From NCBI RefSeq assembly GCF_000236585.1, contig NC_017278.1:1178001-1242000 (forward strand): a stretch of DNA of 64,000 nucleotides, written 5' to 3'. Under the pieces are notes generated by a model that searched no databases, was not told where the DNA came from, and saw only the letters and a list, made by a program, of their open reading frames with translations. Below, piece after piece: positions 47,675-48,639 of this stretch. The stretch comes from Thermus sp. CCB_US3_UF1. Its GTDB lineage: Bacteria > Deinococcota > Deinococci > Deinococcales > Thermaceae. The position numbers and the translations under genes are program-made. Every line of letters starts with the position of its first letter. Position 1 is the first letter of the stretch.

Positions 47675-48601
47675 TCAGAGCTCGGGCAACCGGGAGGCCG
47701 CCTCCTTCAAGCGCTCCCTCGAGGCGTGGAGGTAGATCTGGGTGGTGGCGATGGACTCGTGGCCCAGAAGGTCCTTGACCGCGTCCAGCTCCACGCCCAC
47801 CTCCACCAAGAGGGTGGCGTAGGCGTGGCGGAGCTTGTGGGGGGTAAAGCGCCGGGGGTCCAGGCCGGCCCGGAGGGCGGCCATGCGGAACTTGGCCTCC
47901 ACGTAGCGGGCGGAAGGCACGTGTCCCTTGCGCTTGCCCTGGGCAAAAGTGAAAATGGGCACATTACCCTGGGGAAGGCCCAGCTCCCCCAAGGCCTCCT
48001 GGGCCGTTTTGGAAAGGGGTACCAGGCGCTCCTTGTTGCCCTTGCCCACCACCCGCACCGCCGCGGGCCGCCCCCCCTCCAGGAGCACGTTCCGCCCCTT
48101 GAGGGAAAGGGCCTCAGAGATGCGCAAGCCCGTGCCGTAGAGGAAGCGGGCCAAGGCCGTGAGGAGCCTGGCCTCTTTTTCCTCGACGAAAGCCTGGAGG
48201 AAGCGCTTGAGCTCCTCGGGGTTGGGGTGCAGGGGAAGCCGCCGCCCTGCCTTGGGGCGGCCGATGCCCTCCGTGGGGTCCTCCACGGCCTCCCCCCGCA
48301 CCTGGGCCAGGTAGCGGTAATAACTCCTCAGGGCGGCCAGGAAGCCCTGGACCCGCCTCGGGGCCCAGCGCTCCTCCAGGAGAAGGGCCCGCACCGCCTC
48401 GGGCCCCGGGGGAAGGGCGTGGGCCTCGAGGAAGCCCAGCCAGAGGACCAGGTCCTGGAGGTAGCGCCGCACCCCCCGGGGGGAGTAGCCCCGTTCCAAG
48501 AGGAGGTACTCCGCGTAGGGGGCCAGGACCAGAAGGGCCTGGCTTGGCCTTCTAATGCCCAAGGTTTTCCAAAGAGCGTGGGCGGGAAGGCTGGGGTCCA
48601 T
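47675..48601 (-). CDS. Tyrosine site-specific recombinase (XerC/D/A-like)
   Basis: The 308-residue protein has a core-binding N-terminal domain and a catalytic domain with the full R-K-HxxR-H-Y set: Arg160 in GTGLRISEALSL, Lys in VVGKGNKERLVPL, HKLRHAYATLL, LLGHESIATTQIY and Tyr290 in QIYLHAS. Size and sequence fit a chromosomal Xer rather than a phage integrase, and no phage or integron genes are near. A TATAAT lies 6 bases before the ATG, and a 28-base dif-like palindrome lies right behind it. It may be the single Xer protein for chromosome dimer resolution. Confidence 0.9.
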   Translation of the reverse strand: MDPSLPAHALWKTLGIRRPSQALLVLAPYAEYLLLERGYSPRGVRRYLQDLVLWLGFLEAHALPPGPEAVRALLLEERWAPRRVQGFLAALRSYYRYLAQVRGEAVEDPTEGIGRPKAGRRLPLHPNPEELKRFLQAFVEEKEARLLTALARFLYGTGLRISEALSLKGRNVLLEGGRPAAVRVVGKGNKERLVPLSKTAQEALGELGLPQGNVPIFTFAQGKRKGHVPSARYVEAKFRMAALRAGLDPRRFTPHKLRHAYATLLVEVGVELDAVKDLLGHESIATTQIYLHASRERLKEAASRLPEL

Positions 48602-48607
48602 GGGGGC

Positions 48608-48613
48608 ATTATA
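48608..48613 (-). promoter_or_regulatory. -10 element of the recombinase gene
   Basis: A perfect TATAAT on the minus strand ends 6 bases before the ATG at 48601, so the mRNA is probably leaderless. It touches the dif-like palindrome, so recombinase bound there would repress its own promoter. Confidence 0.6.
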
Positions 48614-48639
48614 TGCGCGAAATGTACCTTTCGCGCAAA
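48612..48639. other. Candidate dif-like Xer recombination site
   Basis: TGCGCGAAA (48614-48622), centre TGTACC (48623-48628) and TTTCGCGCA (48629-48637) form a perfect 9-base inverted repeat with a 6-base centre. With two more bases on each side the length is 28, the classic 11-6-11 layout of dif sites. The TGCGC of the left arm and the TGTA of the centre also occur in E. coli dif. It lies directly beside a xer gene, as in XerS/difSL and XerH/difH systems. An autoregulatory operator is the other reading. Confidence 0.5.

Follow-up and report, generated by a model that had tools for sequence, protein, structure and literature searches.

Chromosome dimer resolution by a single recombinase that acts beside its own dif site is a known design, represented by XerS/difSL and XerH/difH (PMC5357621). 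XerS/difSL of streptococci and lactococci is FtsK-linked and pairs a recombinase of 356 amino acids with a 31-bp site that has an 11-bp centre, and its single gene immediately adjoins that site (PMC5357621). XerH of Helicobacter and Campylobacter measures 354-362 amino acids (PMC5357621), likewise works as a single recombinase with its site near the gene, and is FtsK-dependent (PMC5357621, PMC9765430). In Legionellales, XerL acts alone at a terminus-proximal dif whose inverted repeats are long and uninterrupted, and a related site and recombinase occur on plasmids (PMC9765430). Finally, archaeal XerA is a single recombinase with a 28-bp site that sometimes forms a xerA/dif module with its gene (PMC5357621).

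The stretch of DNA analysed here (the window, 64,000 nucleotides) is part of a 2.24-Mb Thermus chromosome, in a genome that also includes one 19.7-kb plasmid-like contig. The minus strand encodes a 308-amino-acid Xer-type tyrosine recombinase (47675..48601), and beside this gene is a 28-bp sequence (48612..48639, with no strand assigned) that fits the expectation for dif, namely about 28 bp made of two dyad-symmetric arms of about 11 bp around a 6-bp centre. On the plus strand, positions 48614-48637 read TGCGCGAAA-TGTACC-TTTCGCGCA, in which two perfect 9-bp arms enclose the centre. The gene-side arm TGCGCGAAA (48614..48622) and the distal arm TTTCGCGCA (48629..48637) are presumed Xer half-sites, and the centre (48623..48628; GGTACA in the xer sense) is the presumed strand-exchange region. 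A predicted -10 element, TATAAT, is present on the minus strand (48613..48608), and TATAAT or TATACT occupies the same place in relatives. This element stops 6 bases short of the xer ATG, and therefore the transcript looks leaderless. The outer two bases of the gene-side arm form part of TATAAT, such that the site covers the xer core promoter.

We conclude, with a probability of roughly 0.9, that this site serves as dif on the Thermus chromosome and that the adjacent gene encodes the one Xer acting there. This reading draws on comparisons among genomes that place the site at the terminus, find it conserved and linked to xer, indicate that one recombinase gene is sufficient, and detect FtsK with a gamma domain throughout the genus. 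The initial annotation had already proposed the 11-6-11 plan beside a xer-type gene, the contact with its TATAAT and a single-recombinase system, and had named GC skew, presence in relatives and copy number as checks. On each of these points the data given below agree with it.

The recombinase matches PF00589 (Phage_integrase, 8e-31) and PF02899 (SAM-like), and its motifs LRISE, GKGNKER, HKLRH and LGH...IY supply R160, K187, H255, R258, H281 and Y290, which complete the R-K-H-R-H-Y catalytic set of tyrosine recombinases. Its best NCBIfam matches are to XerC, XerD and XerA, all far below the respective cut-offs: 171.7 versus 335.15 for the XerC equivalog (TIGR02224), 155.4 versus 329.6 for the XerD equivalog (TIGR02225), and 132.5 versus 220 for archaeal XerA (NF040815). 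The score with the XerS model (NF003462) is also below its cut-off (70.3 versus 267), and the Thermus system further differs from XerS/difSL in its 28-bp site, 6-bp centre and 308-residue protein. This length is likewise outside the range of XerH, and among solved sequences the protein is closest to XerD (1a0p), with a weaker match to XerH (5jjv). The long uninterrupted arms of the Thermus site recall XerL, which we compared by description rather than by sequence. In L. pneumophila, a distance of more than 400 kb separates xerL and dif (PMC9765430), whereas gene and site are adjacent in 25 of 27 Thermus genomes. XerA appears to be FtsK-independent (PMC5357621), in contrast to the situation in Thermus, where all 27 genomes encode FtsK with a gamma domain.

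Orthologues of the window Xer occur in 26 of the 27 Thermus genomes, with 83-90% identity. In two of these (G036 and G045, drafts that are 99% complete), the orthologue is the only PF00589 protein encoded, and thus one recombinase must suffice. The canonical KOPS sequence GGGNAGGG is polarised on one chromosome arm only (451 versus 336 on the left, 301 versus 300 on the right), and a scan of octamers for KOPS-like polarity revealed only a general G-rich bias, with no octamer prominent.

Symmetry alone is weak evidence for a dif site, because this genome has about one perfect 9-6-9 inverted repeat per 18 kb (44 in the 800 kb that were sampled); the window contains one, the site itself. It is conservation, not symmetry, that raises the site above chance. 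The recombinase and an arm-conserved site are found together in 26 of 27 Thermus genomes, and the one exception (G038) lacks both. Among the 24 copies that are linked to the xer promoter, the arms are essentially invariant, with agreement at nearly every arm base, and the centre GGTACA is common to 22. Conservation ends abruptly beyond the distal arm, where the information drops from roughly 2 bits to at most 0.6. The genes on the xer side are common to most species, and those past the distal arm mostly differ; the flanking genes of Legionella dif are likewise reported to vary (PMC9765430).

One earlier interpretation is weakened by this comparison. The symmetry of the arms had been taken as something that a single recombinase would need, but perfect symmetry proves to be nearly unique to this species, and most relatives carry TTCGCGAAA/TTTCGCGCA, with one arm mismatch. 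Changed centres are seen in three Thermus chromosomal sites: GATTTC in G029 (L042), GCGCGA in G045 (L058) and GCTACC in G035 (L052). G045 also carries a second, imperfect dif-like repeat about 650 bp beyond its site (L058:3087).

The exact site occurs once in the genome, and a search of the GTDB collection with the 24-mer yielded matches in Thermus only. One other arm-like site exists on the same chromosome, at 269.9 kb (TTCGCGAAA-CGTAGC-TTTCGCGAA; L145:10001-10024, G000:C2:269864), and it has a different centre. It is located in a transposase-rich region, with transposases on both sides and a GmrSD-type restriction gene nearby, and its centre CGTAGC recurs in G028, G039 and G046.

These distributions bear on whether the site and gene might instead be the attP-integrase pair of a mobile element that inserted near the terminus by chance. 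In its favour, the relatives of this Xer are often plasmid-borne, and the genes past the outer arm differ between most species. But an insertion of this kind is hard to reconcile with a pair that is nearly universal in the genus, where the flanking genes on the xer side are mostly shared, with a single copy that has no second att copy bounding an element, and with a terminus position that is constant although the flanks are rearranged. Broad conservation and single copy led us to reject this explanation, which we consider extremely unlikely.

The position of the site on the chromosome provides further evidence that it functions as dif. In eight of eight complete or near-complete Thermus chromosomes, the site is opposite dnaA, at 0.476-0.546 of the circle, with a maximum deviation from the antipode of 0.046. 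The chance that all eight would fall so close is about 5e-9 if positions were random and independent, although the species are related and this figure overstates their independence. Genes around the site are rearranged between the eight species, and the terminus position is constant. GC skew was computed for the chromosome of the window from the window itself and 40 sampled stretches of 20 kb. It is mostly positive between 0.1 and 1.18 Mb and, from about 1.24 Mb onward, mostly negative, and the site is at 1.2266 Mb. In G030, a relative, the skew changes sign at the site itself, from +0.008 immediately before it to -0.020 immediately after.

A terminus location would also be expected if the sequence were a replication-fork trap (Ter-like) or another terminus-binding site rather than a recombination site. 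Known fork traps, however, are asymmetric and multiple. The Thermus sequence is two-fold symmetric and single-copy, has 11-6-11 spacing, and is linked to a tyrosine recombinase, and this combination makes a fork trap barely credible.

The overlap with the promoter raises another alternative, in which the palindrome is only an operator through which Xer or another repressor controls xer, with no role in recombination. It is true that the site spans the xer core promoter in 24 genomes, and that similar sites are found just upstream of the integrase genes of mobile elements. An operator, however, does not predict a terminus position in every complete chromosome, nor does it need the conserved spacer hexamer. 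Moreover, the site is displaced in two lineages. In G035, the xer promoter keeps its TATAAT without the site, which is located 230 bp away, and in the sister genus represented by G049 a site of the form TTTGCGAAA-GGTAAC-TTTCGCTAA is about 2.3 kb from xer. Given these displacements, the site is kept for a reason other than the xer promoter. Terminus position and the displaced copies led us to reject a purely regulatory role as very unlikely.

If the site is indeed dif, then the following mechanism can be envisioned. When a chromosome dimer forms, septal FtsK would bring the two terminus copies of the site together, and synapsis would involve four Xer subunits, each bound to one arm. Tyr290 would then exchange strands across the 6-bp centre to restore two monomers. 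In this scheme, Xer binding, catalysis and dependence on FtsK are inferred. Because the site extends over the xer core promoter, Xer bound there would probably also repress its own transcription. Such autoregulation is plausible from the overlap, but the xer promoter of G035 lacks the site.

A second Xer system is present in the rest of the family. Apart from Thermus and G049, all 22 Thermaceae genomes encode another Xer of about 347 amino acids, which shares about 29% identity with that of the window and which we call the Meiothermus type. It resembles the Thermus system in being a core Xer whose promoter is overlapped by an 11-6-11 palindrome, located at the terminus where checked, but differs in sequence, in length and in its arms, which are GCGCACTTA/TAAGTGCGC or of the TTTCCCCTAA type. 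The palindrome was found at the promoter in 12 of 13 loci read, with 9-11 of 11 arm pairs matching, and G016 was the one locus read in which no palindrome was present at the promoter. The form in genus g4 is [AT]GCGCACTTA-N6-TAAGTGCGC[AT]-like, and that in genus g2 is ATTTCCCCTAA-N6-TTAGGGGAAAT. In Meiothermus and related genera (L196, L199, L201, L207-L217), the palindrome is nearly or fully perfect, with arms that differ by genus and centres that vary. The site is opposite dnaA in G009 (0.513) and G019 (0.524). The equivalent sites in genera g2 and g3 are off the dnaA antipode (0.63 and 0.68). In G001 the site is off the antipode but no more than about 50-100 kb from the point where the skew switches sign.

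G038, the only Thermus genome without the window-type Xer, instead encodes a Meiothermus-type Xer (48-50% identity), with the palindrome ATCCTCACTAA-GATTGC-TTAGTGAGCAT at its promoter (L261:982-1009 for the site and 1032-2102 for the gene; G038:C23). None of the 50 genomes carries both a Meiothermus-type Xer and a window-type orthologue, the latter being 83-90% identical within Thermus and 64% identical in G049. Proteins related more distantly to the window Xer (56-60%) are found alongside the Meiothermus type in a few genomes (G003, G007, G010, G017 and G022); one such relative is on a Meiothermus taiwanensis plasmid, and the G017 copy is on a contig that bears dnaA.

Within the order, the window-type Xer is found in Thermus, in G049 and sporadically elsewhere, and its relatives are often on plasmids. 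In a tree that we used for grouping only, given its long branches, its midpoint root and the omission of two sequences, the window-type Xer clusters with these distant relatives and with the Xers of Thermus plasmids, and a very long branch sets it apart from the Meiothermus core Xer. The simplest reading of these sequence relationships is that a whole module was replaced in the Thermus lineage. In a fuller version, to which we give about even odds, recombinase and site were swapped for a module related to plasmid resolution in the lineage ancestral to Thermus and its sister genus, the older Meiothermus-type Xer/dif survived in the other sampled Thermaceae and in one Thermus, and mobile elements, which carry host-dif arms beside their own integrase, would rely on the host Xer while keeping a centre of their own.

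In the literature searched, which did not include subscription papers, we found no description of a Thermus dif. Neither Thermus nor Deinococcus appears in the main text of a large dif survey (PMC3025954) or of a review of single-Xer systems (PMC5357621). Putative dif sites have been mentioned for Deinococcus radiodurans (PMC9764985), and a 2026 study did not confidently identify a canonical dif in that species (PMC13342612). What is new, as supported by the comparisons above, would be the Thermus instance of a known design and the unusual replacement of a module across a family. These findings offer a concrete candidate dif and recombinase for the whole genus, together with a search rule, which is to seek an 11-6-11 palindrome at the promoter of a terminus-located Xer. 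Two mutually exclusive systems in one family suggest that a recombinase and its site can be replaced as one unit although the function that they serve in cell division is conserved, and this idea is directly testable given that Thermus is genetically tractable.

Sites with Thermus arms and other centres are also found on plasmid-like contigs, and just upstream of integrases of about 390 amino acids that adjoin tRNA genes. The same integrase-adjacent arrangement exists in Meiothermus genomes, there with Meiothermus arms. Examples near an integrase start, with host-dif arms and a different centre, are L149-L154 and L162-L164 in Thermus and L218 and L219 in Meiothermus. Because these sites bear Thermus arms in Thermus and Meiothermus arms in Meiothermus, the arms track the Xer of the host, which suggests that the host Xer acts on the elements, most likely for the purpose of resolving element multimers. 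Mobile DNA bearing sites that resemble host dif is known from pdif, cer and IMEX systems (PMC6449649, PMC5357621). The Thermaceae element sites differ from these in that they copy the host arms with other centres, and in that several are beside their own integrase, often near tRNA genes. Since mobile elements carry similar arms, arm sequence alone is insufficient to identify the chromosomal site. The chromosomal centre is absent from all other sites listed, but chance alone predicts the same, and so we do not count this as evidence. In a phage collection, a tblastn search produced no match above about 33% identity among the best matches listed; the arm pattern is present in six viral contigs, whose GC content is 38-55%.

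Xers encoded on Thermus plasmids form a related clade (about 45-50% identity to the window Xer), and their own promoters bear another pair of arms, in the palindrome TTCGCCAAA-N6-TTTTGCGAA about 95 bp upstream of the start (L146:14290-14313, on the genome's own contig C1; L181, L202 and L203). The initial annotation had expected one site per megaplasmid, and this is not general, as the T. thermophilus megaplasmid Xers examined (L180, L182, L183, L184) have no such palindrome within 700 bp upstream. These proteins are nearly identical to small-plasmid Xers, and their genes directly follow a VapC-type gene. A Meiothermus plasmid-type Xer (L179, L189, L190, L204), 56% identical to that of the window, has the 11-6-11 site TTTTATGGAAA-TCGGCA-TTTCCATAAAC at -88. 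Finally, contigs C1, C2 and C5 of G025 carry host-type sites every ~12.2 kb or ~9 kb, as if they were head-to-tail plasmid multimers, with two different sites per unit in C1.
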